NCBI RefSeq assembly: GCF_003063295.1
Contig: NZ_MUXF01000010.1
Location: 124,001-188,000, forward strand
Length of the DNA stretch: 64,000 nucleotides
Origin: Arcobacter lacus
Lineage (GTDB): Bacteria > Campylobacterota > Campylobacteria > Campylobacterales > Arcobacteraceae
Reading direction: 5' to 3'
Made by a program: the position numbers and the translations under genes. The notes beneath the pieces were generated by a model. It had not been told where the DNA came from, ran no database searches, and saw only the letters and a list, made by a program, of their open reading frames with translations. Position 1 is the first letter of the stretch, and every line of letters begins with the position of its first letter. Below are positions 47,996-64,000 of the stretch, piece by piece.

Positions 47996-48029
47996 TGACA
48001 ATAAAGTCTAATATTGACAAATATGTCAA
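47996..48029. promoter_or_regulatory. Two tandem HxlR-type operators, GAC-N6-GTC
   Basis: In the divergent region between the HxlR and oxidoreductase genes a perfect 16-bp palindrome TTGAC AAATAT GTCAA lies at 48014-48029, and a weaker copy TGAC AATAAA GTCT at 47996-48009. Their centres are 19 bases apart, near two helical turns. TATTAT at 48037-48042 is a plausible -10 for the oxidoreductase. The perfect copy equals the operator before the cupin gene in half-sites and spacing. Confidence 0.6.
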
Positions 48030-48070
48030 AAATATGTATTATTTCAATAATTATTTTAAAAGGACAAAAA

Positions 48071-48604
48071 ATGGCACAAACTAAAAAAAGAGTTTTAATA
48101 AATTTAGTTCACCCAAATATGGATGAATCAAGAGTAAATAAAGTTTTAAGTGAAGTTGCACAAAAAGAAGATTTTATAACAATCAATAATTTATATGCAA
48201 AATATCCAGATTTTAAAATTGATGCAAAAGAAGAACAACAATTACTATTAGAAAATGATGTAATAATTTTTCAATTTCCAATGTATTGGTTAAGTTCACC
48301 AGCACTTTTAAAAGAGTGGTTAGATGTAGTTTTAGAATATAATTTTGCTTTTGGTGAACACTATAAATTAGAAAACAAAACTTTAGCAATAGCAACAAGT
48401 GTAGGAAGTGGAATAGCGCAATATAATAAAAATGGAAGCAATAAATTTACGGTTGAAGAGTTTTTAAATTCATTTGAAGCAACAGCGAATTATACAAAAA
48501 TGAATTATGCAAAACCTTTTGTAACTTATGAAACTTTTGTAATAAGTGATGAAAAACTTGAAGAATCTGCAAAAAATTATGTTGAATATTTAAAAGAGTT
48601 ATAA
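48071..48604 (+). CDS. NAD(P)H:quinone oxidoreductase-like flavoprotein (flavodoxin fold)
   Basis: A 177-residue flavodoxin-fold reductase of the KefF/MdaB/YwrO type: VLINLVHPNMDESRVNKVL at the start and IFQFPMYWLSSPALLKEWLD (~62-81) forming the FMN-binding region. It would reduce quinones by two electrons, avoiding radicals. The ATG before AQTKKR has AGGACAAAA upstream; an earlier ATG lies inside the operator region and is unlikely. Controlled by the divergent HxlR protein by inference. Confidence 0.87.
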   Translation: MAQTKKRVLINLVHPNMDESRVNKVLSEVAQKEDFITINNLYAKYPDFKIDAKEEQQLLLENDVIIFQFPMYWLSSPALLKEWLDVVLEYNFAFGEHYKLENKTLAIATSVGSGIAQYNKNGSNKFTVEEFLNSFEATANYTKMNYAKPFVTYETFVISDEKLEESAKNYVEYLKEL

Positions 48605-48606
48605 TA

Positions 48607-48632
48607 AAAAGAGGTAAGATTACCTCTTTTAC
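48607..48632. terminator. Bidirectional terminator
   Basis: AAAAGAGGT / ACCTCTTTT around a six-base loop, right after the oxidoreductase stop and just before the stop of the convergent exporter gene. Confidence 0.65.
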
Positions 48633-48641
48633 AAAAAAATC

Positions 48642-48959
48642 CTAAGCAGTTGTAAATTTAAGACCAATAATACCTAAGATGATAAATAAAATACTAATTA
48701 TTCTAATTATATTTATAGAATCACCAAATAACATTATTCCAGCAATTACTGTTCCTACTGTTCCTATTCCTACCCAAACAGCATAAGCAGTTCCTAAAGG
48801 AAGAGTTTTCAAAGAAAGACTTAATAACCAAATACTAACTAGCATTGCAATTATTGTAAATAAACTTGGGATTAATTTTGAAAAACCATCTGTATATTTA
48901 AGACCTACTGCCCAAAAAATTTCAAAAATTCCTGCAATGACAAGAGTGACCCAACTCAT
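48642..48959 (-). CDS. gdx: SMR-family guanidinium exporter (Gdx/SugE type)
   Basis: A 105-residue, four-helix small multidrug resistance protein that should export guanidinium ion in exchange for protons. Glu13 ([15 protein letters not shown]), the proton/substrate carboxylate of the family, is present, and [18 protein letters not shown] (~52-69) has the Gdx/SugE rather than EmrE pattern. It is preceded by a guanidine-II riboswitch, which independently fixes the substrate. AAGGAA precedes the ATG. Confidence 0.9.
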
Positions 48960-48981
48960 AAAATTCCTTTTTTGATAATTT

Positions 48982-49023
48982 GAGGCCGTCCTCTGTGAAG
49001 TGAAGTGGCAAGGTCGTCCCTGC
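48982..49023 (-). promoter_or_regulatory. Guanidine-II (mini-ykkC) riboswitch
   Basis: On the reverse strand two hairpins with ACGR tetraloops lie in series: GCAGGG-ACGA-CCTTGC (six perfect or G-U pairs) and GAGG-ACGG-CCTC (four pairs), joined by a 14-base linker. This is the full mini-ykkC consensus. The second hairpin ends 22 bases before the exporter start codon, suited to exposing the ribosome site when guanidinium binds. A TATAAAAT-like -10 lies upstream. Confidence 0.9.
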
Positions 49024-49146
49024 TTTCTTGTATAAATTTTATACTATTTTTTATAAAATGATATTAAAATAGGGTGAGTATTCGTAAATGATTATTATTT
49101 TAAAAGTAAGTTTATTATTTCATTAAATTTAAAAGGCGGTTTACAT

Positions 49147-49221
49147 ATGGCAGTTTATGTAGTTGGACAAATTAATATAATAGATCTTAAAAATATGAAT
49201 AATATAAATGTTGTTTTATAA
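49147..49221 (+). pseudogene. Short ORF, possible remnant of a DUF1330 gene
   Basis: A 24-codon frame starts MAVYVVGQINIIDLK, which resembles the N-terminus of DUF1330 proteins (M..Y.v..i.i.D), then degrades and stops. AAGGCGG lies eight bases upstream, an unusually good ribosome site. It is too short to be the whole ~95-residue domain. The rest of this 336-base stretch (48960-49295) contains only the riboswitch and promoters; TACAAT at 49260-49265 is a likely -10 for the next gene. Confidence 0.35.
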
Positions 49222-49295
49222 ATAGTATAAAAATTTAGTTTAATGGGAACAACATTTGCTACAATGATTTTTTAAAACAGAAGTGAGAAAATAAT

Positions 49296-50108
49296 ATGAA
49301 AATACCAAATATGATTTATGGAACAGCTTGGAAAAAAGAAAATACTACAAATTTAGTTTTTGAAGCTTTAAAACAAGGATTCAAAGCAGTTGATACAGCT
49401 TGTCAACCAAGACATTATAGAGAAGATTTAGTAGGATTAGGTTTACAAAAAGCTTATGATGAGCAAATTGTAAAAAGAGAAGATTTATTTATTCAAACAA
49501 AATTTACTCCAATTGATGGGCAAGATAAAAATAATATGCCATATTTAGAGAGCGATGAAATAGAAATTCAAGTGGAAAAATCTTTTGAAACTTCTAAAAA
49601 AAATCTAAAAACAAATTTTATTGATGCTTATATTTTACATTCACCTGTTTATCCTGGAAGTAAACTTCAAAAAGTTTGGCAAAAAATGGAAGAGTTTGTT
49701 GATGATGGTGAAGTAGGGCAATTAGGAATTAGTAATTGTTATGATTTAGATATTTTAATTTATATTTATAACAATGCAAAAATAAAACCATCAATCGTGC
49801 AAAATCGATTTTATGCTCAAAGTAGATATGACAAAGAAATAAGAGCTTTTTGCCATGAAAATAGTATAAAATATGAAAGTTTTTGGTCTTTAACTGCAAA
49901 TCCACATATTTTAACAAGTGCGATTTTACAAACTTTATCACAAAAATATCAACGAGGTGTTGCTGAGATATTTTATAGATTTTTAAATCATATAAATATT
50001 ACACCTCTAAATGGAACAACATCAACAAAACATATGATTGAAGATTTAAAGATTAGCGAGTTTGAACTTACAAATGATGAGATAAACTCTATTTTAAATT
50101 TATTATAA
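49296..50108 (+). CDS. Aldo/keto reductase
   Basis: A 270-residue NADPH-dependent (beta/alpha)8 barrel oxidoreductase. The catalytic tetrad can be seen: Asp in AVDTACQP (~33-40), Tyr in RHYRED, Lys in QTKF and His in YILHSP (~110-115). It likely reduces reactive aldehydes or ketones. It is ten bases before the PEBP-like gene and forms an operon with it. Confidence 0.88.
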   Translation: MKIPNMIYGTAWKKENTTNLVFEALKQGFKAVDTACQPRHYREDLVGLGLQKAYDEQIVKREDLFIQTKFTPIDGQDKNNMPYLESDEIEIQVEKSFETSKKNLKTNFIDAYILHSPVYPGSKLQKVWQKMEEFVDDGEVGQLGISNCYDLDILIYIYNNAKIKPSIVQNRFYAQSRYDKEIRAFCHENSIKYESFWSLTANPHILTSAILQTLSQKYQRGVAEIFYRFLNHINITPLNGTTSTKHMIEDLKISEFELTNDEINSILNLL

Positions 50109-50117
50109 GGAAAGAAA

Positions 50118-50642
50118 ATGAAAAAAGTATTATTAAGTTTAGGTTTGTGTGCTAGTTTTTTATTAGCAGATAATTTCACTTTGAAAAGTGATACATTAAA
50201 AGGGCAATTATCAACTAAACAAGTTTTTAAAGGTTTTGGATGCAGTGGAGAAAATATCTCACCAGAACTTTCTTGGGAAGGTGCTCCAAAAGGAACAAAA
50301 TCTTTTGCAGTTACAGTTTATGACAAAGATGCACCAACAGGTTCTGGATGGTGGCATTGGGTTGTATTTAATATTCCAGCAAATATAACAAAACTTGAAG
50401 AAGGATTTGGAAATAAACCATCTAAAGATATTGTTCAAAGTATTACTGATTATGGTGTAAGTGGTTTTGGTGGAGCTTGTCCTCCAGTTGGGGATAAATC
50501 TCATGAATATAAATTTACAGTTTATGCTTTAGATGTGGATAAATTAGAGTTAGATGAAAAATCAAGTCCAGCTTTAGTTGGTTTTATGTTAAATTCTCAC
50601 TCAATTGCAAAAGCTTCAATAATATCATATTACAATAGATAA
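50118..50642 (+). CDS. Exported YbhB/YbcL (PEBP, Raf kinase inhibitor-like) protein
   Basis: A 174-residue phosphatidylethanolamine-binding-like protein with a signal peptide (MKKVLLSLGLCASFLLA). The family motifs are present: GENISPELSWEGAPKGTKSF (~45-64), TVYDKDAPTGSGWWHWVVFN and YGVSGFGGACPPVGDKSHEY (~114-133). Natural ligand unknown. Its end overlaps the convergent LysR gene by 13 bases. Confidence 0.92.
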   Translation: MKKVLLSLGLCASFLLADNFTLKSDTLKGQLSTKQVFKGFGCSGENISPELSWEGAPKGTKSFAVTVYDKDAPTGSGWWHWVVFNIPANITKLEEGFGNKPSKDIVQSITDYGVSGFGGACPPVGDKSHEYKFTVYALDVDKLELDEKSSPALVGFMLNSHSIAKASIISYYNR

Positions 50643-51514
50643 TTTTTATTAAATCTACTTTTTATGAACTCAATAAAAGTTTTAAAAAGTAGATTTTTTG
50701 ATTTTTCTTTGTGATAAATCAAGTAGAATTCTCTTTTTAATTCTAAATTTTTAAGTTTTATTTGAAAAAGTTTTTTTTCATCTAACTCTTTTTGTACAAT
50801 CACTTTTGAAATAGCAGTTACAGTTTCAGGATTATTTAAAACAATAGTTTTTATTTCTTTGCAGTTTTGTAATTCCATAAAAATATCTAACTCTTTTGCA
50901 ATATCACCAATTTTATCTATAAATATTTTTCTAGTTCCACTTCCAATTTCTCTTAAAATCCATTTTTTTTCAATTGTATCGATAAAAGCTTCTTTTTTAT
51001 AGTTTTTATCACTTGTAACAATTATTAATTCATCATCTCCTAGCTTTTCTTTTATTAAATTGCTATTTTGAACATCTGCTTCAATAAGACCAATATCAAG
51101 TTCACTTTTAAGAATTTTATCTATAATTTTGCTTGAATTTATAGTTAAAATATCTAATTTTACGTCTTTATATTTTAATAAAAAATCATAATAAATATTT
51201 GGCATTATATAGTTTGAAATAGTTTTACTTGCAGCTATTTTTATATTTCCAGCTAGTTTATTTTCTTGAAAAATTGTTGTTGCATCAATAAGTGCTTGAT
51301 AATGAGGAAGAGTTTTTTCTTTAAAATATTTTCCTTTTTCATTTAGTATTAGTTTTTTGCCGATTCTATCAAAAAGTTGTTCATTTAGACTATTTTCAAG
51401 TGATTTTATTGCTAAAGAGATAGCTGATTGACTAATATTTAGTTCGCTTGCAACTTGTGTAACTTGTGGATTTTCACATAATTTATAAAAAAAACTTAAC
51501 TCTTTTAAAGTCAT
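50630..51514 (-). CDS. LysR-family transcription regulator
   Basis: A 294-residue LysR activator: HTH at the N-terminus (LKELSFFYKLCENPQVTQVASELNISQSAISLAIKSLE spans ~3-40) and a type-2 periplasmic-binding-fold effector domain with ELDIGLIEADV and LREIGSGTRKIF (~190). It is divergent from yeiH across 101 bases and likely controls it; in the gap TATTAT and ATAATA arms at 51541-51561 could be its site, though AT-richness weakens this. Confidence 0.92.
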   Translation of the reverse strand: MTLKELSFFYKLCENPQVTQVASELNISQSAISLAIKSLENSLNEQLFDRIGKKLILNEKGKYFKEKTLPHYQALIDATTIFQENKLAGNIKIAASKTISNYIMPNIYYDFLLKYKDVKLDILTINSSKIIDKILKSELDIGLIEADVQNSNLIKEKLGDDELIIVTSDKNYKKEAFIDTIEKKWILREIGSGTRKIFIDKIGDIAKELDIFMELQNCKEIKTIVLNNPETVTAISKVIVQKELDEKKLFQIKLKNLELKREFYLIYHKEKSKNLLFKTFIEFIKSRFNKNYLL

Positions 51515-51615
51515 ATCTTTTCCTTATTAAAAATATTAATTATTATATTAAAAATAATATATTTTACAAATTAAAGAATTAGAGTTATACTTCCAAAAAA
51601 CTAAGGAAATATATT

Positions 51616-52635
51616 ATGAAAACTAATAATAGTATTATAAATACTTTATATGGTGTTTTGTTTGTAGGAGTATTTGCATTAATTGCAACAATTATGTCAG
51701 AAATTGATTTTTTTGAAAAGTTAGGAATTAGTCCACTTATTATAGGGATTATTCTTGGAATTTTGTATGCAAATACTTTAAAAAACAAATTCCCAAATCC
51801 TTGGCAAAATGGAATAACTTTTTCTACAAAACATATTTTAAGATTTGGAATTATTTTATATGGATTTAGACTTACTTTTCAAAATCTTCAAGAAGTAGGA
51901 ATAAATGGAATCTTAATAGCTTTTTGTGTAGTTTTTTTTACTTTTATTTTTGGATATTTTATTGGAACAAAAGTTTTAAAGATGGATAAAGAGTTAGCTA
52001 TTTTATGTAGTGCTGGAAGTTCTATTTGTGGAGCAGCAGCGATTATGGCAACTCAAAGTGTATTAAAAAATGAAGCTTATAAAAGTGCAGTTGCTGTATC
52101 TTTTGTAGTGATTTTTGGAACAATTGGAATGTTTTTGTATCCATTTTTAGATAAGTTAGGCGTATTTCTTTTTACAAGTTCACAAATGGGAGTTTATATA
52201 GGAGCAACACTTCATGAAGCAGCTCATGTTGTTGCAGCTGGAAATGCTTTGGGTGAAGTTGTATCAAAAAATGCAATTATTGAAAAAATGATTAGGGTTA
52301 TTTTTTTAGTTCCATTTTTGATTCTTTTATCATTATGGTTAATTAAAACAAATTTTCATACAAAAAAAGAGAAATCAAAAATAGTGATTCCTTGGTTTGC
52401 AATATTTTTTATATTTGTAGTTGGTTTTAATTCTTTTGAACTATTGGAAGAAAATGTAATAAGAAATATAAATTTTTTAGATAGTTTTGCTTTAACTATG
52501 GCAATGACTGCTTTAGGAATGGAAACAAGTTATGATAAGTTTAAAAATACAGGAATAAAACCACTTTATTTATCTTTGATTTTATTTATTTGGTTAATGG
52601 TTGGAGGGTATTTTTTAGTTAAATTCTTTTTGTAA
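51616..52635 (+). CDS. yeiH: YeiH/UPF0324 family membrane transporter
   Basis: A 339-residue protein with about ten TM helices of the YeiH family, often labelled putative sulfate exporter. Family text includes LGISPLIIGIILGILYANTL (~36-55), CSAGSSICGAAAIMATQSVL (~134-153) and GATLHEAAHVVAAGNALG (~196-213). Divergent from a LysR gene as in E. coli yeiE/yeiH. The sulfate assignment is weakly founded. Confidence 0.9.
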   Translation: MKTNNSIINTLYGVLFVGVFALIATIMSEIDFFEKLGISPLIIGIILGILYANTLKNKFPNPWQNGITFSTKHILRFGIILYGFRLTFQNLQEVGINGILIAFCVVFFTFIFGYFIGTKVLKMDKELAILCSAGSSICGAAAIMATQSVLKNEAYKSAVAVSFVVIFGTIGMFLYPFLDKLGVFLFTSSQMGVYIGATLHEAAHVVAAGNALGEVVSKNAIIEKMIRVIFLVPFLILLSLWLIKTNFHTKKEKSKIVIPWFAIFFIFVVGFNSFELLEENVIRNINFLDSFALTMAMTALGMETSYDKFKNTGIKPLYLSLILFIWLMVGGYFLVKFFL

Positions 52636-52660
52636 GATAAGTATTTTATACTTATCTTAC
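52632..52660. terminator. Bidirectional terminator containing both stop codons
   Basis: A perfect 13-bp stem, GTAAGATAAGTAT / ATACTTATCTTAC with a TTT loop, spans the stop codons of yeiH and of the convergent DsbC-like gene. Confidence 0.8.
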
Positions 52661-53392
52661 TTCTATTCCATATTTTTCTAGCATATTAACCCAAATTATA
52701 CTATTTCCATTTTTATCAAATAGTGCAGGAGTTCCTTGAATATTTAAATTAGTCGCAATATTCATTTGTTCATTTAACTGTTTTTCAAGTTTTGCAAGTT
52801 CAGATTTTGAATATTTTGCATTTTTTACTTTATCTAAATTATCACCAATATTAAATTCATATAAAGCATCGATTTTTTGAGAAGTTGTTTTTTGACTTAA
52901 AATATATAATGATAAATCATGTGCATTTTCATGAAATTCTAAAGGATAAAAAAATACTCTGATTTTAACTTTATCTTTAATTTGTGGTAGATATGACTCA
53001 AATTTTTTACAAAATGGGCATTCTGGATCTGTAAATAAAACATATTCATCTTTTCCTGTTCCATATACAAATCCTTCTTTATCTTTTGTAGTTGATAAAT
53101 CAACAGGAGCTGAAAGTTGCATTTGATTTGATACATTTACAACTGCACCAGAAATAATATATTTTTTATCTTTTGTTAGATAAATTTCATCATTGCTTCC
53201 TTGAACTTTGATACTCAAAATATATAAACTTCCCGCATCATAGGCTTTTAAAATTTTTATATTTGCTTTTTTAAATATTTCTAATTGTTCTATTTTAGAA
53301 ATCTCATTTTTAGGTAATTCTTTATTATCAGCAATTAAAACTGTTCCAATAAATAATAAAATCATAACTGTTTTTTTTGTTAAATTAAACAT
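52652..53392 (-). CDS. DsbC/DsbG-like periplasmic disulfide protein
   Basis: A 246-residue exported thioredoxin-fold protein: signal sequence (~8-21), an N-terminal dimerisation-like domain, then the redox motif CPFC in LFTDPECPFCKKFESYL (~124-140) and the cis-Pro loop IQGTPALFD. It would isomerise or reduce disulfides in the periplasm. AGGA precedes its ATG. It is transcribed alone on the reverse strand. Confidence 0.87.
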   Translation of the reverse strand: MFNLTKKTVMILLFIGTVLIADNKELPKNEISKIEQLEIFKKANIKILKAYDAGSLYILSIKVQGSNDEIYLTKDKKYIISGAVVNVSNQMQLSAPVDLSTTKDKEGFVYGTGKDEYVLFTDPECPFCKKFESYLPQIKDKVKIRVFFYPLEFHENAHDLSLYILSQKTTSQKIDALYEFNIGDNLDKVKNAKYSKSELAKLEKQLNEQMNIATNLNIQGTPALFDKNGNSIIWVNMLEKYGIEVR

Positions 53393-53444
53393 AAGTTTTC
53401 CTGATGAAAATTTTTGCGTATTGTATCTTTTTTATATTAAGTTA

Positions 53445-53472
53445 TAGGTGAAAATTTTTGAATTTTCACCTA
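53445..53472 (-). terminator. Terminator after the AEC transporter gene
   Basis: A perfect 12-bp stem TAGGTGAAAATT / AATTTTCACCTA with a four-base loop, immediately after the transporter stop on the reverse strand. Confidence 0.7.
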
Positions 53473-53476
53473 ATAT

Positions 53477-54379
53477 TTAGATACTTGCAATAAAATAAAA
53501 TATTCCAGTTGTAAATAACGAAATAATTGTTCCATATCCCACTATTGCAGAACTTAATTTTGGTGCAAGTCCTGCCATAGATGCTATTGCACCTGCTGTT
53601 ATCATAGTTGGCATTGCGGCTTCCATAATTGATACTATTGAAGCAGTATTATGCCAACCAAATATTTGGCAAATAATAATTGCAATAAGTGGAGCAATCA
53701 AAAGTTTTATTATCAAAGCTACACTAAAAGGTTTTATCTCTTCTTTTAATAGTTTTAATTGAAGTTGAAGTCCAACTGCAACTAAAGCAAGTGGAACAAT
53801 CGTATTTGAAAAAGCACTTAAAACTTTTATTGTAACTTGATTAAATTCTGTGCCAATTAATAATAGACCAACTATCAAAGCAATAAATGGTGGAAAAGTT
53901 AAAACTTTAAAAGTCACTAATCTAAAAGTAACTTTTGTATTACTCGAATAGAAACTAGCTATAAAAGTCCCATATGTTGCAAGTGCAATAAAATTTCCTA
54001 ATTGGTCATAAACTAAAATATAAGGAATAGCTTCTTCTCCGATATAAGAAGTAATTATTGGAATACCAATAAATGAAGTATTTCCTAAAACTGTTACAAG
54101 CATAAGACAGCCAGTCACTTCTTTTGTAAAATCAAATATTTTCGATAAAAAAAGTATCAATAAAGCACTTAATATCATAACGCTCCAAGATATAATTATT
54201 GGAATAATTGCTTCTATTGAGATATCTAATTTGGGTATTTGTAATAAAATCATTGCAGGAAGAGAAATATAAATTAAAAATTGATTTAAAATAAGAGGTG
54301 CATCTTTAGAAAATATATTTAGTCTATTAATCGTATAACCAATAGACATTGCTAAAATAATTAAGATAAAATTTTCCAT
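53477..54379 (-). CDS. AEC-family (auxin efflux carrier-type) transporter
   Basis: A 300-residue permease with ten TM helices in two five-helix repeats, N-terminus MENFILIILAMSIGYTINRLNIFS and GNTSFIGIPIITSYIGEEAI (~98-117) typical of AEC carriers. It sits three bases after the HxlR gene in the same transcript. Substrate unknown; relatives move malate or other small carboxylates. Confidence 0.9.
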   Translation of the reverse strand: MENFILIILAMSIGYTINRLNIFSKDAPLILNQFLIYISLPAMILLQIPKLDISIEAIIPIIISWSVMILSALLILFLSKIFDFTKEVTGCLMLVTVLGNTSFIGIPIITSYIGEEAIPYILVYDQLGNFIALATYGTFIASFYSSNTKVTFRLVTFKVLTFPPFIALIVGLLLIGTEFNQVTIKVLSAFSNTIVPLALVAVGLQLQLKLLKEEIKPFSVALIIKLLIAPLIAIIICQIFGWHNTASIVSIMEAAMPTMITAGAIASMAGLAPKLSSAIVGYGTIISLFTTGIFYFIASI

Positions 54380-54382
54380 TTT

Positions 54383-54754
54383 TTACTCACAAAAGTTATT
54401 TTGACAAGGATTTTCTGGAGTTATTTTTCCAAACTCTTGTACATAATCAATTCCCCATTTATGCATCTCTTCTAAAACAGCTCTTAGTTTTTCTCCACAT
54501 GGAGTTAAACTGTATACAACTTTTGGTGGAACTTCAGCAAAACATTCCCTATTAATAATATTTTTTTCTTCTAATTCTTTTAATTTTATAGTTAATGTTT
54601 TTTGAGTTATTTCACTGATTATTTCATTTAATTCTTTAAATCTTTTTTCACCATCAAGTAAATGCCAAATTATTGCTAATTTCCATCTATCATTAAAAAT
54701 ATCAAGAGTTACAGCTACACTGCATCTATACTCTTTTTCATTGATATAATACAT
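54383..54754 (-). CDS. HxlR-family redox-type regulator (second copy)
   Basis: A 123-residue winged-helix regulator similar to the HxlR protein 7 kb away: RWKLAIIWHLLDGEKRFKEL, ITQKTLTIKLKELEEKNII and FAEVPPKVVYSLT. Cys11 (YRCS) matches the sensing Cys position of YodB/HypR, and two more Cys end the protein (NPCQNNFCE). It is the first gene of an operon with the AEC transporter and faces mdaB and four detoxification genes. Confidence 0.9.
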   Translation of the reverse strand: MYYINEKEYRCSVAVTLDIFNDRWKLAIIWHLLDGEKRFKELNEIISEITQKTLTIKLKELEEKNIINRECFAEVPPKVVYSLTPCGEKLRAVLEEMHKWGIDYVQEFGKITPENPCQNNFCE

Positions 54755-54812
54755 AATTAAAATCCTTTAAATTTATAGGTTAAAATTATATCATAAAGAG
54801 TATAAATTTCTA

Positions 54813-54836
54813 TTACTTACCTAAAGTAAAGTAAGT
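54813..54836. promoter_or_regulatory. Candidate HxlR operator (TTACT-N7-AGTAA)
   Basis: Between the divergent HxlR and mdaB genes, TTACT-TACCTAA-AGTAA at 54813-54829 is a palindrome similar to the YodB-type TACT-N-AGTA box, overlapping a second pair ACTTAC / GTAAGT (54815-54836). It differs from the GAC-N6-GTC sites, so this regulator likely has its own specificity. Confidence 0.45.
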
Positions 54837-54885
54837 GTAAATTAAGTTTATTATATTTATAATTTAAAAAATAAAAGGAGCAATT

Positions 54886-55467
54886 ATGAAAAAAGTTTTA
54901 ATTTTAAATGGTCATCAATATTATAAAGGTCCAGCTAATGGTGAATTAACAAATCATTATATAGAAAAAGCTAAAGAATTTTTCTCTAAAAATGGTTTTG
55001 AAGTAAAATATACTCATATTGAAAAAGGTTTTGAAGTAGAAGAAGAGTGCCAAAAATTTGAATGGGCAGATTATGTTTTATTTCAATATCCAGTTTATTG
55101 GATGGGAGTACCTTGGATTGCTAAAAAATATTTTGATGAAACTTTTACTCAAGGAAGACACTATGAAAGTGATGGTAGAAGTAGAAGTGATGCAAGTAAG
55201 ACTTATGGAACTGGCGGATTACTAAAAGGTAAAAAATATATGTTAAGTGTAACTTACAATTGTCCAACAAGTGAATTTGATAATAAGAAAGGCTTTTTTG
55301 ATGGTTTATCTTTAGATGAAGCACATATTGCAACTCATAAAACTTTCCAATTTTGTGGATTAGAACCACTTAAAACTTACTCTGTTCATGATATTTTCAA
55401 AGGAGATTTAGATTTAAATAAAGAGTTAGAAAAATTTGAATCAGTTTTAAAAGAGAATTTTTTATAG
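54886..55467 (+). CDS. mdaB: NADPH quinone reductase MdaB
   Basis: A 193-residue flavoprotein that reduces quinones by two electrons; length equals the E. coli protein. It opens MKKVLILNGHQYYKGPANGELT and has FQYPVYWMGVPWIAKKYFDE (~66-85) plus GRHYESDGRSRSDASKTYGTGG, the FMN/FAD site of MdaB. GGAGCA precedes the ATG. It heads a five-gene operon and is followed ten bases later by a YgiN-like gene, the same pair as mdaB-ygiN in E. coli. Confidence 0.93.
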   Translation: MKKVLILNGHQYYKGPANGELTNHYIEKAKEFFSKNGFEVKYTHIEKGFEVEEECQKFEWADYVLFQYPVYWMGVPWIAKKYFDETFTQGRHYESDGRSRSDASKTYGTGGLLKGKKYMLSVTYNCPTSEFDNKKGFFDGLSLDEAHIATHKTFQFCGLEPLKTYSVHDIFKGDLDLNKELEKFESVLKENFL

Positions 55468-55476
55468 GAAAAAAAT

Positions 55477-55773
55477 ATGAAAAATATTGTAATAGTTGCA
55501 ACTATAAAAGTGAAAAAAGGTTTTAAAGATGAAGTTTATAATGAACTTTTGAAACTGCATAAAGCTACACATGAATTTGATGAAGGTTGTATTCAATACG
55601 ATTTACATAAAGATTTAAGTGATGATTTTAGTTTTTCTTTTATAGAGACTTGGAAAAATCAAGAGTTTTTATCTTTACATGAAACAAAAGAGCATTTTAA
55701 AAACTTTGTATCTAAAATTGAAAATAAAATAGATAGTTTAACAATCAATAAATTAGAAAAACTAGAAATCTAA
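55477..55773 (+). CDS. YgiN-like antibiotic biosynthesis monooxygenase-domain protein
   Basis: A 98-residue ABM ferredoxin-like fold protein: NIVIVATIKVKKGFKDEVYNEL (~3-24), HEFDEGCIQYDLHKD and FIETWKNQEFLSLHETKEHF (~55-75), the His pair and Trp typical of the family. In E. coli the mdaB partner YgiN oxidises quinols, giving a quinone redox cycle; the same role is inferred here from the pairing. Confidence 0.87.
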   Translation: MKNIVIVATIKVKKGFKDEVYNELLKLHKATHEFDEGCIQYDLHKDLSDDFSFSFIETWKNQEFLSLHETKEHFKNFVSKIENKIDSLTINKLEKLEI

Positions 55774-55785
55774 AAAGGATTTTTT

Positions 55786-56817
55786 ATGAGCTTATTATTA
55801 AAAAGTGGAAACATAGGAAAGATTCAATTAAAAAATAGAGTTGTTATGCCTCCTATGTGTATGTATAAAAGTGATAATAGTGGGGAACTTAAAGATTTTC
55901 ATCATTATCATTATGTATCAAGAGCTTTAGGTGGAGTAGGATTTATAATAGTTGAAGCAACTGCAATTGAATCAAAAGGAAGAATCTCATCAAATGATTT
56001 AGGTCTTTGGGATAATTCTTTGATAGAAAAACATAAACAATTAAATAAAGATATACACTCTTTTGGTGCTAAAACTGCAATTCAAATTGCTCATGCGGGA
56101 AGAAAATCAACTGTTATTGATTCAACTCCAATAGCACCAAGTTCAATTGCTTTTTCAAAAGAAGCTCCATTTAAAATTCCAAAAGAAGTTTCAATAGAAG
56201 AGATTAAAAATATAAAAGAATTATTTATAAATGCAGCTTTTAGAGCAAAAGAGGCAGACTATGATGCTATTGAACTTCATGCAGCTCATGGTTATTTATT
56301 ATGTGAGTTTTTATCACCAATTACAAATAATAGAACAGATATTTATGGTGGAACTTTAGAAAATAGATGTAGATTAGTTTTAGAAATAGCCACTGAGATT
56401 AAACAAAAATTGGATTTGCCTTTGATTATTAGAATTAGTGCAGATGAATGGATGAAGAATGGTTGGAATATAGAAGATTCTATTTATTTATCAAAAGAGT
56501 TAGAAAAGTTAGGTGTTGATGCAATTCATGTATCAAGTGGAGGAAATATAGAAAATCCAGATAATGCACCAACAATTGAACCTTTATATCAATCTTCTTG
56601 GGCAAAAAAAATAAAAGAAAATATAAATATTCCAGTCATTGCAGTTGGATTAATCACAACACCAAAAGAGGGTGAATATTTACTTGAAAATAAATTTTGT
56701 GATTTTGTGGCATATGGTAGAGAGTTACTTAGAAATTCAAATTTTGTATTTAATGCTGCAAATGAGTTTAAAGAAAAAGAAAAAATAGATAGTTCATATC
56801 AAAGAGCTTATAGATAA
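55786..56817 (+). CDS. Old yellow enzyme, YqjM/NamA class
   Basis: A 343-residue NADPH:flavin oxidoreductase that reduces activated C=C bonds of electrophiles. Cys25 in PPMCMYKS is the redox-tuning Cys of the YqjM class, which classical OYEs lack. The substrate His pair is in ELHAAHGYLLCEF (~162-174) and the FMN motif includes AHAGRKS. It belongs to the mdaB operon and in other bacteria YqjM is induced by electrophile stress. Confidence 0.93.
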   Translation: MSLLLKSGNIGKIQLKNRVVMPPMCMYKSDNSGELKDFHHYHYVSRALGGVGFIIVEATAIESKGRISSNDLGLWDNSLIEKHKQLNKDIHSFGAKTAIQIAHAGRKSTVIDSTPIAPSSIAFSKEAPFKIPKEVSIEEIKNIKELFINAAFRAKEADYDAIELHAAHGYLLCEFLSPITNNRTDIYGGTLENRCRLVLEIATEIKQKLDLPLIIRISADEWMKNGWNIEDSIYLSKELEKLGVDAIHVSSGGNIENPDNAPTIEPLYQSSWAKKIKENINIPVIAVGLITTPKEGEYLLENKFCDFVAYGRELLRNSNFVFNAANEFKEKEKIDSSYQRAYR

Positions 56818-56834
56818 TTTAGAAAGAAGAAAAA

Positions 56835-57731
56835 ATGATTCAAAAAAGTAATACCAAATATTTTATTGGTATGTTTATAGCGATGATAATTTGGGGAATT
56901 GCATGGACTTCAGGAAAAGCTGCAACAAGTCATTCTAATCCAGAAATAGCAGCATTTTGGAGATATGCAATCTCATTTTTAACAATTATTCCGGTTGTTT
57001 TATATATGAAAACAAGTTTAAAAAGTGATAAAGAAGGTTATATTTATATGATATTTGCTGGAATTTTTAGTGCGGCTTTTAATTATCTATTTTTTAAAGG
57101 TTTATCTCACGGTGAAGCTGGATATGGTGGAACTATGGTTACCTCAATTGTTCCAATATTAACATATATATTTTCAATTATACTTTTTAAAATAAATGTT
57201 TCAACTAAACAGGTTGTTGCTTTAAGTATTGGAATTTTTGGTGCTTTAATACTTTTAAAAGTTCCATCAGAAGGCTTAGCATTTTTAAATATAAATAGTT
57301 CATATTTTTTAGCTTGTGCAGTTGTTTGGGCAATGGTTACAATATTTTCACAAAAAGCATCAAAAAAAGCAGATCCTATGTTTTATACTTTAGTTGTTTT
57401 TGGAATTACAGCATTTATAAATATGATTTTTGCAATTCCTTATCATCCTTTTACAATAACTTCTTTTGATTATATTTTTTGGTTAAATATTTTGTTTATT
57501 GGAATATTTTCTGGAACATTTGCAATGACACTATTTTTTATTTCAGCTTCAAAAATTGGAGCTCATAATACTGGTGTTTTTATGTTTATTGTTCCTATTG
57601 GTGCTATAATTTCTAGTTATTTTGTCTATAATGAGAATATTGCTTTATCTACAATATTAGGGTGTTCGTTTTCATTTGTTGCAGTTATGTTGTTTAATGC
57701 TAAAAATAAAAAAAAGCTTGTAGAAGCTTAA
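56835..57731 (+). CDS. EamA-family (DMT) transporter
   Basis: A 298-residue ten-helix permease with two EamA repeats: IWGIAWTSGKAATSHSNPE (~19-37), FKGLSHGEAGYGGTMVTSIVPILTYI and FISASKIGAHNTGVFMFIVPIGAI (~227-250). It is the fourth gene of the operon, after the OYE gene by 17 bases. It may export a product or toxic compound of the reductases, but no substrate is known. Confidence 0.88.
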   Translation: MIQKSNTKYFIGMFIAMIIWGIAWTSGKAATSHSNPEIAAFWRYAISFLTIIPVVLYMKTSLKSDKEGYIYMIFAGIFSAAFNYLFFKGLSHGEAGYGGTMVTSIVPILTYIFSIILFKINVSTKQVVALSIGIFGALILLKVPSEGLAFLNINSSYFLACAVVWAMVTIFSQKASKKADPMFYTLVVFGITAFINMIFAIPYHPFTITSFDYIFWLNILFIGIFSGTFAMTLFFISASKIGAHNTGVFMFIVPIGAIISSYFVYNENIALSTILGCSFSFVAVMLFNAKNKKKLVEA

Positions 57732-57757
57732 AATTTTAATTTAAAAAAGGAGAATTT

Positions 57758-58393
57758 ATGGAAAAAACATTTATGGAAGCTATGGATTTTAGACATGCTT
57801 GTAAAATTTTTGATGAGGCTAAAAAAATCAGTGATGAAGATATGAAATTTATTTTAGAAGTTGGAAGAAAAAGTCCAAGTTCTTTTGGTCAAGAGGGATG
57901 GAAATTTTTAGTTATTACAAATGAAGATTTAAAAGAAAAATTAAAACCTCATTGTTGGAATCAACCTCAAATTACAACTTGCTCTCACTTAGTTATCATT
58001 TTAGCTGCAATTGAAGCCGTTAAACCAGAAAGTGGAATTCCAGCAACTAGATTTGCAAGACGTGAAATGCCACAAGAGAAAAAAGATTTTTATAATAAAT
58101 TATATAAAGACCACTTAACAGTTACAAAAGTTTTAGATAGTGATGAAAATGTTTATTCTTGGACAGCAAGACAAACTTATATAGCTGCAGGAAATATGAT
58201 GACAGCAGCTGCTATTAAAGGAATTGATTCTTGTCCAATAGAAGGATTTGAAAAAGCAAAAGTTGAAGAAGTTTTAGGACTTGATACTAAAAAATTTCAA
58301 TTATCTATGGTTTTACCATTTGGATATAGAATAAATCCACAATCTACTCAAATGAGACTACCTTTTGAAGAAGTAGTTGAATTTATAAAATAA
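57758..58393 (+). CDS. Nitroreductase family (NfsB-like) protein
   Basis: A 211-residue FMN-dependent nitro/flavin/quinone reductase. Seen are MDFRHACKIFDEAKKISDED (~9-28), the FMN contacts SPSSFGQEGWKFLVI (~40-54) and GMDSCPIEGF-type text (IDSCPIEGFEKAKVEEVLGL, ~155-174). It ends the operon and is followed by a hairpin. It acts on nitro compounds and quinones in relatives. Confidence 0.9.
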   Translation: MEKTFMEAMDFRHACKIFDEAKKISDEDMKFILEVGRKSPSSFGQEGWKFLVITNEDLKEKLKPHCWNQPQITTCSHLVIILAAIEAVKPESGIPATRFARREMPQEKKDFYNKLYKDHLTVTKVLDSDENVYSWTARQTYIAAGNMMTAAAIKGIDSCPIEGFEKAKVEEVLGLDTKKFQLSMVLPFGYRINPQSTQMRLPFEEVVEFIK

Positions 58394-58400
58394 ATAATAA

Positions 58401-58425
58401 AAGAAGAAAATTTTATTTTCTTCTT
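58401..58425 (+). terminator. Terminator after the mdaB operon
   Basis: An 11-bp stem AAGAAGAAAAT / ATTTTCTTCTT with a TTT loop, seven bases after the nitroreductase stop codon, followed by T-rich DNA. Confidence 0.65.
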
Positions 58426-58505
58426 TCTTTCCAAAAGCACTCATCCCATAAACTAAGTAAAAATATAGTAGAATAGCCAATATTTCACAATATAAAAGGT
58501 AAAGA

Positions 58506-59999
58506 ATGCTTAGTGTTAGTGATATTGAAAATTGGCTAAGAGAACACGGAATTAATAACTATCATATTTCAGAAGATTTTTATGTTTCAGTTCAGGGAAA
58601 TGTAAATTTATCTGAGAAATTAAATGGTGAAAAACTTCCTCTTAAATTTGATAGGATAGACGGTTACTTCGATATAAGTAATAATAATCTTGAAACATTA
58701 GAAGGATGTCCTAAAACTGTTGTAAAAGATTTTAACTGCTCAAAAAATAAATTAACATCTTTATTTGATTGTCCTACTGAAGTAGGAGAGTTTGATTGTT
58801 CTTATAATCAATTAAAGAATTTATCTTATGGTCCAAAAGAAGTTAAAGGAAGTTTTAATTGTTCATATAATGAATTAACATCAATAAAAGCAAGCCCAAG
58901 AACTGTAAAAGGTCATTTCAAATGTAATGACAATAAATTAGTTTCATTAGAAGGTGGACCTAAAAATATAGATACATATTTTGATTGTTCTCATAATTTA
59001 CTTGAAAGATTAACAGGTGGTCCAATTGCTGTTAAACAAGATTATATTTGTAATGGTAATAGATTAGGTGATTTAGAAGGTGTTGCAGATGAAATTGGTG
59101 GGGATTTAGTAACTGATATAAAACTAAATATTCCTTCAAGATATGATGATGAAGGACAATTTTATAGATACAAAGGCCAAGAAGCAATTACTCATATTTA
59201 TAAACCTATTGTTGCTCTTACAAATAGTGAAGACATTCAAGCCTGGTTGGAAAAATTTGATATAAAAAATGCAACAATTTTATCTGACAATTCTGTTGAT
59301 GTTCATGGAGATGTTAAACTTTCAAATAGATTGCCAAACTTATCTAAGCTACCAATAAATTTTAATATAGTTGATGGTGATTTTGATATTAGTGAAAATG
59401 AATTAGTTTCATTAGAGGGAAGTCCTGTAAAAGTTGGTGGAAGTTTTCATGCTCATAAAAATGAGTTAAACTCTTTAAGAGGTGGACCAAAAGAGGTTAA
59501 AGGAAGTTTTGTAATACTTCATAATAATATAACATCTTTACAGAATTCACCAACTATTGTAAAAGATGATTATATTTGCTCACACAATCCTTTACGGACT
59601 TTAGAAGGAATAAATACAGTACAAGGATATGTATTTACAGGAGTTTATATTCCAAGACTAAAATGTCAAAAATATAATTATAAAGGTATTACTACGTATA
59701 AGTATCCAGGTGACGCTGTAATGAAGTATTTAGATGAAGAGTATATTTCTTTAACTGATGAAGAAAAAGCATTCGAATCAACTAAAAAGAATTTAGAAAA
59801 AGTAATTAAAAAAATGCTAAATGCAAATACTTTAACAAAAGAGATGATAACAGATACTCTTTTGAAAAACCTTACAAAATATCAATTAGATCAATTAAAA
59901 ACTAAAGTTTTATGGATAAAAAATCCACCAAATGAAGATGGAAGTGATTATATAAGTGAAGATGATATTATGAAATTGGCTTTTGAGAAAGAGCTATAA
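58506..59999 (+). CDS. Internally duplicated LRR-like repeat protein of phage type
   Basis: A 497-residue soluble protein without signal peptide. Two modules share a header: residues ~6-55 (DIENWLREHGI ... DFYVSVQGNVNLSEKL) and ~243-292 (DIQAWLEKFDI ... SVDVHGDVKLSNRL). Each is followed by ~21-residue repeats of pattern FxCSxNxLxSLxGxPxxVxG, about seven in the first (55-200) and four in the second (293-376). The pattern resembles LRR-like proteins of large tailed phages. The ~100-residue C-terminus is helical. GGTAAAG precedes the ATG. No phage gene is adjacent; function unknown. Confidence 0.8.
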   Translation: MLSVSDIENWLREHGINNYHISEDFYVSVQGNVNLSEKLNGEKLPLKFDRIDGYFDISNNNLETLEGCPKTVVKDFNCSKNKLTSLFDCPTEVGEFDCSYNQLKNLSYGPKEVKGSFNCSYNELTSIKASPRTVKGHFKCNDNKLVSLEGGPKNIDTYFDCSHNLLERLTGGPIAVKQDYICNGNRLGDLEGVADEIGGDLVTDIKLNIPSRYDDEGQFYRYKGQEAITHIYKPIVALTNSEDIQAWLEKFDIKNATILSDNSVDVHGDVKLSNRLPNLSKLPINFNIVDGDFDISENELVSLEGSPVKVGGSFHAHKNELNSLRGGPKEVKGSFVILHNNITSLQNSPTIVKDDYICSHNPLRTLEGINTVQGYVFTGVYIPRLKCQKYNYKGITTYKYPGDAVMKYLDEEYISLTDEEKAFESTKKNLEKVIKKMLNANTLTKEMITDTLLKNLTKYQLDQLKTKVLWIKNPPNEDGSDYISEDDIMKLAFEKEL

Positions 60000-60008
60000 A
60001 ATAGGGTT

Positions 60009-60030
60009 AAGTCTTAACTAGACTTTTTTA
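60009..60030 (+). terminator. Terminator after the repeat-protein gene
   Basis: AAGTCT / AGACTT around a five-base loop then six T, ten bases after the stop codon. TATAAT follows at about 60034 as a likely -10 for the next gene. Confidence 0.55.
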
Positions 60031-60080
60031 GATATAATCTAATAAATTTTAATAAAATAAATAATGGAGATAGTTAAATT

Positions 60081-61679
60081 ATGGTTCAAACAGTTAATCT
60101 TAAAAAAGCTTTTGGTGCAAGAGTTTTATTTCAAGATATAAATCTAAAATTAGATACAGGGAAAAGATATGGTCTTATAGGTGCAAATGGTGCAGGTAAG
60201 ACAACATTCCTTAAAATTCTTTCAGGTCAAGAAGAGGCAACTGAAGGAGAAGTACAAATTCAAAATGGTAAAAAAGTTGGAGTTTTATCTCAAAACCAAT
60301 TTGCTTATGAGAATTATACGATTTTTGATACAGTTTTATTAGGAAATAAAAAATTATATGATGCAATAAAAGAAAAAGAAGAGTTATATATGAGTCCAGA
60401 ATTTACTGATGAAGTAAATAATAGACTTGCAGAACTTGAGATTATTTGTTGTGAAGAAGATCCAACTTATGAATATGATATAAAAATTACAAAAATATTA
60501 GAAGATTTAGGTTTCCCTTCTTCTATGCATCAAGATTTGATGAGTACATTAACAGGTGGAGATAAATTTAAAGTTTTATTAGCACAAGTTTTATATCCAA
60601 AACCTGATGTACTATTTTTAGATGAGCCAACAAATAACTTAGATATTGAGACTATTGGATGGCTTGAAAATCAACTTCAACATCATGAAGGTACAATGGT
60701 TGTAATCTCTCATGATAGACACTTCTTAAATGCTGTTTGTACACATATTTTGGATGTAGATTTTAAACAAATTAGAGAGTTTACTGGAAATTATGATGAT
60801 TGGTATATAGCTTCAACTGTTATAGCAAAACAACAACAAGCAGATGTAAGTAAAAAATTAAAAGAAAAAGAAGAACTTGAAAAGTTTATTGCAAGATTTA
60901 GTGCAAATGCTTCAAAAGCAAAACAAGCAACATCAAGACAAAAACAACTTGATAAACTTGATATTGCTGCTATTCAAGTATCAAGTAGACGTGATCCTTC
61001 TATTATCTTTAGACAAAAAAGAGAAGTAGGAAAAGAGTTATTAACTGTTAAAAATATTTCAAAATCATATGATGGAAAAATTGTGTTAAATGATGTATCT
61101 TTTACAGTAGAAAAAGGTGATAAAATAGCACTTATTGGAACAAATGGTATTGGAAAAACTACTTTATGTGAGATTTTAGAAGGAAACCTAAAAGCTGATA
61201 GTGGAGAAGTTTTATGGGGAGCAACTATTCAAAACTCATATTTTCCACAAAATGCAACTGATATTATAAAAGGTGATATGACTTTATATGATTGGTTAAG
61301 AGGTTTTGATAGAGATGCTGATATTTCTGAGATTAGAAATTGTTTAGGAAGAATGTTATTTAATGGTCAAGAGCAAGAGAAAAAAGTTGATTCTTGTAGT
61401 GGGGGAGAAAAACATAGAATGATGCTTTCTAAGATTATGTTAGAGCAAGGAAATTTCTTAGTTTTAGATGAACCAACAAACCACTTAGACTTAGAAGCTA
61501 TTATTGCTTTAGGTGAGGGATTAAATGATTATGCGGGTTCTGTAGTTTGTGTATCTCACGATAGAGAGTTATTAGATGCTTATGCAAATAGAATAATAGA
61601 AATTCAAGATGGTGGGACAATTTTAGATTTTAAAGGAACTTATGAAGAGTTCATTGAATCGAAAGGTCAAACTGCATAA
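60081..61679 (+). CDS. ABC-F ATPase, YbiT-like
   Basis: A 532-residue soluble protein with two ABC domains and no membrane part, of the translation-associated ABC-F class. Domain 1 has GANGAGKTT (~34-42) and LTGGDKFKVLLAQVL; domain 2 has GTNGIGKTT (~353-361) and CSGGEKHRMMLSKIML. The linker (~245-300) is a Lys/Glu-rich helical hairpin that would reach the ribosome P-site region. Length and linker fit YbiT. GGAGATAG precedes the ATG. Confidence 0.92.
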   Translation: MVQTVNLKKAFGARVLFQDINLKLDTGKRYGLIGANGAGKTTFLKILSGQEEATEGEVQIQNGKKVGVLSQNQFAYENYTIFDTVLLGNKKLYDAIKEKEELYMSPEFTDEVNNRLAELEIICCEEDPTYEYDIKITKILEDLGFPSSMHQDLMSTLTGGDKFKVLLAQVLYPKPDVLFLDEPTNNLDIETIGWLENQLQHHEGTMVVISHDRHFLNAVCTHILDVDFKQIREFTGNYDDWYIASTVIAKQQQADVSKKLKEKEELEKFIARFSANASKAKQATSRQKQLDKLDIAAIQVSSRRDPSIIFRQKREVGKELLTVKNISKSYDGKIVLNDVSFTVEKGDKIALIGTNGIGKTTLCEILEGNLKADSGEVLWGATIQNSYFPQNATDIIKGDMTLYDWLRGFDRDADISEIRNCLGRMLFNGQEQEKKVDSCSGGEKHRMMLSKIMLEQGNFLVLDEPTNHLDLEAIIALGEGLNDYAGSVVCVSHDRELLDAYANRIIEIQDGGTILDFKGTYEEFIESKGQTA

Positions 61680-61681
61680 TA

Positions 61682-61719
61682 AAAAAAAGGAAAAAAGTTT
61701 TATCTTTTTTCCTTTTTTT
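61682..61719. terminator. Bidirectional terminator
   Basis: A 16-bp stem of AAAAAAAGGAAAAAAG and its complement around a six-base loop, between the ABC-F gene and the convergent thioesterase gene. Confidence 0.75.
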
Positions 61720-61733
61720 GTAAATAAAAATTT

Positions 61734-62210
61734 TTAATTTTTTGTATGTTTTGAAGACATTCTAAACTCTTTTCTAGCAATAGCATCATTGTATCTTCTT
61801 TTATCATCTTCTGTTATAAGTTCAAGTTTTGGAACAGGGATTGGTTTTCCATCTTCATCAACTGCAACCATAGTGAAATAACAAACATTAGTATTTTTTA
61901 TAGTATAGTCTTTTATATCTTCTGAAATTACTTTGATTCCAATTTCCATTGAAGTTCTTCCCGTATAATTAACAGAAGCATGGAAAGTAACAAGTGAACC
62001 AATTTTAATTGGATCTTTAAATAAAACCATATCAACAGAAAGTGTTACAGCATAAGTTCCTGAATATCTTGCTGCACAAGCATATGCTACGTGATCAAGC
62101 ATTTTTAGTATTTCACCACCATGTACATATTTTCCAGAGAAATTTGCTTTATCAGGTGTCATCAACATAGTCATTGTAAGAGATTTTTCTCTTTTTATAT
62201 TTTTTGCCAT
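61734..62210 (-). CDS. Acyl-CoA thioesterase, YciA-like hotdog protein
   Basis: A 158-residue hotdog-fold thioesterase cleaving acyl-CoA. The segment MTPDKANFSGKYVHGGEILKML (~16-37) is the family active-site region with the catalytic Asp/Gly-Gly in HGGEILKMLD, and VNYTGRTSMEIGIKV (~80-94) is typical of YciA. It has no visible strong ribosome site. It is convergent with the ABC-F gene. Confidence 0.9.
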   Translation of the reverse strand: MAKNIKREKSLTMTMLMTPDKANFSGKYVHGGEILKMLDHVAYACAARYSGTYAVTLSVDMVLFKDPIKIGSLVTFHASVNYTGRTSMEIGIKVISEDIKDYTIKNTNVCYFTMVAVDEDGKPIPVPKLELITEDDKRRYNDAIARKEFRMSSKHTKN

Positions 62211-62288
62211 TTAATAAAAACCTTATTTATTTAATATTGATATTATAAATTAAGTATATAATAAAATATATTAAATTATAAGGGAAGC

Positions 62289-64000
62289 TTAAAAGCTTTC
62301 CCATTCATCATTAGAAGAGTCTTTAGATTTTATAGGTGTATTTTTAGGAGTAGTTTCTTCAACTTTAATTTCTACTTTAGGAGTTATATTTTTTGTAGCT
62401 TTTTTTTCTATATCTTTAGCTTTCACTTTATCTTTACCTGCAAACTCTTTTTCATCTGCATCACTTACTATTAGTTTTGATATTTCATCTGTTACTATTG
62501 CAATATCATGTGTTTGGCTTGCTATCATCGCATTTTGTTGAGTTTGTCTATCTAAACTATTTACAGCATCATTTATTTGTTCTATTCCTAGTAATTGTTC
62601 TTTTGAAGCATTTTGAATATCACTTATTAAATTCATTGTTTGTGAAATGTTTTGATTTAATTCTTTATAACCATTTATCATATTTGAAGCTATTGATTTA
62701 CCATCATTTGCTTTATTTGTAGCATTTTCTACAAGTTCTTTTATCTCTTTTGCTGCTTCTGCACTTCTTGCTGCTAGATTTCTTACTTCTGCTGCAACAA
62801 CTGCAAATCCTTTTCCTGCTTCACCTGCAGTTGCAGCTTCAACAGCAGCATTAAGTGAAAGAATATTTGTTTGAAATGCTATTTGATCAATTACACTAAT
62901 TGCTTCATTGATTGCTGTTACTTGTGCATTTATTTCATCCATTGATACATTTGTCTGATTTGCTAATTTTTCACCTTGATTTGCTGATGCTGTTACACTT
63001 TTTGAAAAATCTGCCATTTTTGCAATACTTTCTGTATTGTTTCTTATATTTGAAGTTATCTCTTCAAGTGCAGCTGCTGTCTCTTCTAAAGATGCTGCTG
63101 CTTCATTTGAACTTAAGTTCAATTTATCAACATTTGCTAATAAAATGTTTGAACTTTTATCTAAAGTCAATCCATTTGTTTTATTTTCTATTAGCATTTC
63201 AGTTATTGAATCACCTAAGCTATTTACTCCACTTGCTAATTTCAATAAGTGCTCTTTTAAACCTTTTTGATCTATTTTATCTAGATAGTTATATTTAGAA
63301 TATTGTTCTAATACTTTTAATACATTTTCTATATTACTTTCTAAAATATTTGCCATATTATTTAAAACATCTTTTAGCTGGTTTAAAGTTGGATTTGAAA
63401 CTTTTGTATGTAATCTTTGATATAAGTTTCCTTGTTCAAACTCTCCTAAAACAGCTATTGTTTCATCTATTAGTTTTCTATCTTCTTCAATACCTTTTTG
63501 TGTTTTTACAATATTTTCATTTACAAGTTTTGACATTTGTCCAAATTCGTCTTTTGCACTATCATCTAGTAAATTTACGCTATTTGATTCTCTATTTAAA
63601 TATGAAAAGAAACTTAGTAAGCCTTCTTTAAAACTATTTATAGAGTTTATTACAGAATTAGAAATAATTAATGAAATTGCTATAAAAATAATTGTTGAAA
63701 ATACAACTAAGATTATTAAGTCAATATTTAAAGTCTGATATGCTTCATCTCTTAATTCTATTGCACTTTGATTTATTTCTTGAATTTTACTTTCTACATC
63801 AACTCCCACTTTAACCATTTGAGCAATGTCTTTTTTTATCTCTTCACCTTCAATAGTTATATTATTTGAAAAATCAACAATCTTATCTTGAGCAAAACTT
63901 TCAAAACCAGTTACATAATTGTCTATTAAAGAAATTATTTGATTAGCTAATTCTATATTATGAGGACTTGTAAATTCTGCTTTTGTTTCAATAACATTGT
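62289..64000 (-). CDS. Methyl-accepting chemotaxis protein (5' end outside the window)
   Basis: A chemoreceptor of which ~570 residues are visible; the frame remains open to the window edge, so the N-terminal TM and part of the sensor are missing. Visible are the end of a periplasmic helical sensor (to ~90), TM2 ([18 protein letters not shown]), a HAMP-like region, and the signalling hairpin with [20 protein letters not shown] and [15 protein letters not shown]. The protein ends EWESF, resembling the NWETF tether that binds CheR/CheB. An internal ATG is not the true start. Confidence 0.92.

Follow-up and report, generated by a model that had tools for sequence, protein, structure and literature searches.

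A two-module leucine-rich repeat protein kept in Arcobacteraceae and probably descended from header-LRR proteins of large phages

How does a gene with the architecture of a large-phage protein come to lie among ordinary cellular genes of Arcobacter lacus? The locus belongs to a stretch of 64,000 nucleotides (contig NZ_MUXF01000010.1, positions 124,001 to 188,000, forward strand), referred to here as the window, and coordinates below are those of the window. The initial annotation described a protein in which a header followed by repeats occurs twice, placed this architecture mainly in large tailed phages and proposed that the gene may be a domesticated phage gene. A literature search found no paper on this Arcobacter protein.

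The open reading frame at 58506-59999 (plus strand) begins with ATG, is preceded by a Shine-Dalgarno-like AAAGG at 58495-58499 and encodes 497 amino acids. Each module has a header of about 53 residues followed by leucine-rich repeats (LRRs) of 20-21 residues, seven in module 1 and four in module 2. The features of the locus are as follows.

58400-58426, no strand: perfect inverted repeat AAAGAAGAAAAT-TTT-ATTTTCTTCTTT, between the nitroreductase gene and the LRR gene
58506-59999, plus strand: whole gene, two-module header-LRR protein of 497 aa; homologues near-constant in length, in 65 of 104 family genomes
58509-58667, plus strand: module 1 header, residues 2-54, with a helix, two strands and the first cap repeat (header-only profile, fold)
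58668-59090, plus strand: module 1 LRR solenoid, seven repeats of 20-21 aa, residues 55-195 (alignment, fold, repeat statistics)
59091-59216, plus strand: module 1 C-terminal cap, residues 196-237, strands and a helix, motif Y-x-G (alignment, fold)
59217-59381, plus strand: module 2 header, residues 238-292 (HHalign to the module 1 header, header tree)
59382-59618, plus strand: module 2 LRR solenoid, four repeats, residues 293-371 (alignment, repeat statistics)
59619-59741, plus strand: module 2 C-terminal cap, residues 372-412, motif TYKYPGD (alignment, fold)
59742-59999, plus strand: C-terminal helical domain, residues 413-497 plus stop, conserved in the family (fold)
60081-61679, plus strand: downstream neighbor, an ABC-F ATPase, adjacent in several genera and not a fixed partner

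The repeat anchors, the F or Y of FxC/IxxNxL, fall at residues 55, 76, 96, 117, 138, 159 and 180 in module 1 and at residues 293, 314, 335 and 356 in module 2, with a spacing of 20-21 residues in both. When the same residues were shuffled 2000 times, the pattern [FYL]xxxxNx[LIF] appeared 1.7 times on average and never more than 7 times, whereas the protein contains it 11 times. Aligned with each other, the module 1 and module 2 headers (window copies) share 45% identity, and HHalign matches them with a probability of 99.8 (E 5e-30). The initial annotation had proposed a structure prediction as a check; the AlphaFold2 model (23 homologues, mean pLDDT 87) has an LRR fold in both modules, with elements predicted in the same order: helix, two strands, LRR strands, two strands, helix. 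Anchors, shuffles, HHalign and fold all agree with a header and repeats present twice in one protein, seven and four, and judged by sequence the two modules are true duplicates.

Eleven repeats at a spacing of 20-21 residues, beyond what shuffling yields, together with profile and fold matches, place the protein in the LRR superfamily, in its bacterial type of 20-22 residues. Members of this type are recovered by phmmer (YopM at 4e-13, InlJ at 2e-12, and also IpaH/SspH), and VIA-align superposes the LRR domains of IpaH, SspH1 and YopM with Z 15-16 over about 190-200 residues. This likeness in repeat type and fold to the YopM/IpaH/SspH effectors would be expected if the family were born in bacteria and phages acquired their LRRs from there. 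However, those proteins are injected effectors of animal pathogens, and the NEL E3 ubiquitin ligase domain of IpaH and SspH has no Pfam match in the window protein. In addition, the header common to phages is not picked up in the effectors, and the gene is found across a whole bacterial family and not on virulence loci. We therefore regard a bacterial birth of this kind as improbable.

The initial annotation had also pointed to cysteines at fixed places in the repeats and suggested that they could form a ladder. The column itself holds up. In module 1 it consists of C78, C98, C119, C140, C161 and C182; among 40 homologues C98 is conserved at 97%, and no variation is seen at C78, C119, C140, C161, C182 or C358. 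The column thus spans all but one of the seven repeats in module 1, while module 2 has it in a single repeat of four. A precedent for a ladder would be Internalin J of Listeria, which has 21-residue repeats with a cysteine at the same inner position (LxCxxNxL) and whose PDB entry 3bz5 bears the words 'cysteine ladder' in its title. Internalin J is, however, secreted and surface-anchored and lacks a phage-type header, whereas the window protein has no signal peptide or wall anchor: inspection of the sequence found a charged N-terminus (MLSVSDIENWLREHG) with no hydrophobic signal segment, and no LPXTG. The cysteines are most likely buried LRR-core strand positions (FxC), reduced, in a cytosolic protein. 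A ladder of disulfides found no support, since the cysteines occupy a buried strand position and signs of export are absent.

LRR proteins of this repeat type, among them YopM, IpaH and the internalins, bind other proteins through the concave strand face. In the window protein family the concave positions are less variable than the convex ones (mean entropy 1.07 versus 1.47 bits, p 0.018), and the concave face of module 2 carries the near-invariant exposed residues D294, S296, K318, L338, S359 and H360. The conserved concave face and the near-invariant residues of module 2 favor a cytosolic scaffold whose main contact lies in module 2. The C-terminal helical domain has no relative in the phage sequences searched, gives weak scattered matches only against Pfam, and has no relative in the PDB by sequence or by fold (model pTM 0.40); by these searches this domain of the Arcobacteraceae protein is new and without known relatives. 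Matches of the protein to Pfam Pro-kuma_activ and Ish1 fall below the cut-offs of these families and were set aside.

Does the resemblance to phages go beyond the repeats? Repeat-free profiles of the header alone, run against IMG/VR and huge-phage loci, matched 131 viral proteins at E<1e-5, the best at 1.4e-14 (Z=1e5), while a tblastn search with the header alone against 50,697 phage records found matches only in uncultured phages of 634-735 kb, at up to 40% identity (E 2e-5). Since these matches were made with the header only, the relation exceeds mere repeat similarity. With the Arcobacter profile six loci were recovered from IMG/VR, and a phage profile recovered 47, on contigs of up to 292 kb; patterns drawn from the single window protein were too specific and gave no match in viral contigs, whereas the alignment-based query succeeded. 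Across the viral sets and the Campylobacterota sample, homologous headers outside Arcobacteraceae were found only in large tailed phages, the profile search of the sampled rest of the phylum giving one weak LRR match and otherwise none. The attribution of this architecture to large tailed phages, which the initial annotation had made and had proposed to check by searching phage and Campylobacterota proteins with one module, is borne out by both kinds of header search.

The phage proteins (loci L072-L080 and L154-L200; records LR756501, LR756502 and LR745206) match PHROG 21719 and 7816, whose function is unassigned. Like the Arcobacter protein, they combine a header of about 50 residues (for example DIENWLKKMNIKNYTIHDNGIVDVNGNVNISNKRLTYIPVQFGEVDG) with 21-residue repeats of the form FxCSxNxLxSLxGxPxxVxG. 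They differ in gene organization, as the phage copies are mostly tandem arrays of genes with one module each and a variable number of repeats, and in that they usually have a short N-terminal leader and lack the C-terminal helical domain. In a header tree with 39 viral headers and 72 columns, the module 1 group has an SH-aLRT of 96 and the module 2 group of 88, and both Arcobacter modules stand together against the phage headers with moderate support (SH-aLRT 85). This topology would fit one entry followed by one in-frame duplication before the family diversified.

Two side observations concern the phage contigs themselves. The terminase large subunit at L075:1566-3557 (minus strand) has an apparent intein (CVDGSTKI ... 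SVISHNC) midway through its ATPase region. On the 192-kb viral contig of L080 (270-11912), LRR gene arrays alternate with arrays built on another repeat, FNGDISKWDVSNV, which is DUF285/BspA-like by eye, and genes of both kinds begin with the same leader of the MKILDSNEYINEKL type.

The leader of the phage proteins offers a hint as to their use. A [LI]xE tripeptide ending by residue 16 is present in 125 of 141 phage header-LRR proteins (many of them close paralogues); the tripeptide occurs in 54 of 156 other ORFs and, among internal windows, in 24 of 154. Examples from the phage proteins are MKSYKQFITE and MKLQELFLKE. In phage T4, internal proteins reach the head by means of their first ten or so residues, are cut by gp21 after L/I-X-E and are then delivered to the host cell (PMC9026906); one of them, IPI, blocks a restriction enzyme of the host (PMC3012670). 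The folds of IPI-IPIII are unrelated to LRRs, but their short N-terminal leader ends in L/I-X-E as in the phage relatives described here. Given this precedent, it is a reasonable guess that phages package and inject their LRR proteins, those of L075-L079 and L154-L200 being possible cases by analogy, although packaging of LRR proteins is putative and the Arcobacter protein has no L/I-X-E leader, its header starting from residue 2-5.

The leader also bears on the idea that the gene is a captured phage host-takeover protein that now acts as a defense or decoy factor. On this idea the ancestral phage proteins would be packaged, injected and bind host proteins, and the Arcobacter copy would occupy or guard the same host target. 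The frequency of the leader among phage proteins, the T4-like packaging and injection that it may signify, and the presence of the same header minus the leader in Arcobacter all speak for it. Against this, the window protein has no PADLOC match, the gene lies outside any defense island, its slow evolution and constant length are unlike those of most defense genes, and the leader is missing from some phage copies too (for instance L169, L181 and L184). We consider a defense or decoy role unlikely.

The surroundings of the gene bear no mark of a phage. Its neighbors encode a permease, an HxlR-type regulator, oxidoreductases, an EamA transporter, a nitroreductase, the ABC-F ATPase, a thioesterase and a chemoreceptor, all ordinary cellular genes, in agreement with the earlier remark that no other phage gene is nearby. 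Traces of a past insertion, for which the flanks were to be checked, did not emerge: no neighbor is of phage type and there is no tRNA gene in 48000-64000 of the window. The inverted repeat at 58400-58426, with 12-bp arms and a 3-nt loop, is A+T-rich and kept in two close relatives; it was missed by a consensus terminator scan, and from its sequence it is a probable terminator of the upstream transcript. A fixed operon with the ABC-F ATPase was rejected, because the two genes are adjacent in several genera but the LRR gene has quite different contexts in others. At the ABC-F locus of nine genomes without the LRR gene, about 1.5 kb on each side held no remnant of it. Given these varying contexts, the LRR gene behaves like a stand-alone gene of the chromosome that has no constant partner. 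A recent insertion or prophage remnant was rejected in view of the lack of phage neighbors and tRNA and of the presence of the gene in nearly every genome of the genus.

How the gene is distributed speaks to its age. It is single-copy in its own genome and was matched in 65 of 104 family genomes, in nine of 20 genera and in 29 of 30 genomes of its own genus, and no LRR protein match was found in the rest of the order Campylobacterales. Family-specific patterns, which miss distant relatives, found 29 loci in 84,980 bacterial and archaeal species genomes, all with titles of Arcobacteraceae or compatible with it (one a bare 'bacterium', one a bin labelled Sulfurospirillum). Homologues are 497-502 aa long with few exceptions (one of 520, from an upstream start) and 50-98% identical, and dN/dS is about 0.03-0.12 in ten pairs; at the sequence level the gene is under strong purifying selection.

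As species marker we used RpoB in place of LigA, because LigA is at odds with the genus grouping. The ligA gene lies just past the end of the window (L031:14346-16295); the LigA of the window genome is 83% identical to some members of genus g9 and only 73-76% identical to several members of its own genus, and exchange of ligA is a possible reading of these sequences.

Of 21 splits, the LRR gene tree and the RpoB tree have 11 in common, including the genus-level groups g1, g2, g9, g17 and most of g19, so that the two agree at genus level; the distances correlate at 0.52, above the maximum of 0.41 in 5000 permutations. At some deep forks the two trees disagree, and a degree of gene transfer within the family is therefore possible. 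In the LigA tree every carrier falls into one supported clade, with five basal genera lacking the gene; genera without it lie towards the base of both the LigA and the RpoB trees (g5, g7, g8, g11 and g12) or closer to the carriers (g3, g10, g14, g15, g18 and g20), and absence in the latter six is best read as loss. One genome, G098, has decayed LRR gene fragments only, with stops, which on sequence grounds is a loss in progress. The initial annotation had set its phage hypothesis against a family that is widespread and vertically inherited in Campylobacterota with no phage homologues. What we find is split: the gene is widespread, single-copy and vertically inherited within Arcobacteraceae, but the remainder of the phylum sample lacks it, and there are homologues in phages. 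Both the phage link and long vertical inheritance are thus supported.

The same distribution weighs on one further comparison. The polar flagellar motor structure 8z5u, solved by cryo-EM, contains a 199-aa LRR protein (chain 0), and the Arcobacter protein could be imagined as a similar flagellar-motor accessory: residues 264-367 of module 2 (59295-59606) match chain 0 at E 7e-4, the sole PDB match, and the module 1 region superposes on it with Z 15.3 over 177 residues. Chain 0 is, however, a single solenoid, the sequence match is near noise for repeats, and IpaH domains reach a similar Z. Nor does the window protein have a phyletic tie to flagella. In the crown clade the LRR gene is not associated with fliF (57/2/14/0): 57 carriers have fliF, two lack it (one, G001, a complete genome) and 14 genomes with fliF lack the LRR gene. 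The flagellar link was rejected on this distribution, and we hold such a role to be very improbable.

Altogether we favor, with somewhat better than even confidence, the model that the gene encodes a cytosolic LRR protein-binding scaffold that descended from large-phage header-LRR proteins and was kept in Arcobacteraceae. The only close relatives found are the tandem arrays of phages, and the gene therefore looks like an ancient phage gene; its vertical inheritance across the family, combined with phage homologues, would place a likely domestication at the base of crown Arcobacteraceae and speaks against a recent insertion. Of the proposal that this is a domesticated phage gene, the phage-type header and a likely ancient capture remain and the recent insertion falls away, while the phage-to-host direction of transfer is one that we infer; phages could instead have taken the header-LRR unit from bacteria. 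In the most probable history, a header-LRR gene entered an ancestor of crown Arcobacteraceae, a single in-frame duplication gave rise to two modules, and a C-terminal domain was gained; from then on the gene would have passed down vertically, in one copy on the chromosome, with losses in several lineages. In the product, a cap helix would connect two LRR arcs and a small helical domain would come last. The concave face, above all that of module 2, would hold a conserved protein or peptide partner, while the C-terminal helices may carry a second contact. The cytosolic location, the binding role and the two-sided scaffold are likewise what we infer from these features. More speculatively, and on balance doubtfully, the header-LRR arrays of large phages could encode diversified host-binding proteins that are packaged in the head and injected, and one of these could have been captured by an ancestor of the Arcobacteraceae, stripped of its leader, fused from two copies and made a permanent cellular component. 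The conserved partner would in that case be what the phage weapons originally targeted in the host.

The catalogs used here list the phage header-LRR proteins solely as families of unknown function. A cellular relative that evolves slowly, exists as a single copy, has a conserved binding face and belongs to a culturable genus offers a practical handle for a partner search, and the partner of the Arcobacter protein may reveal the target of the phage proteins. For the Arcobacteraceae, the gene is a clear candidate case of a kind of phage gene that became a stable, family-wide bacterial gene.
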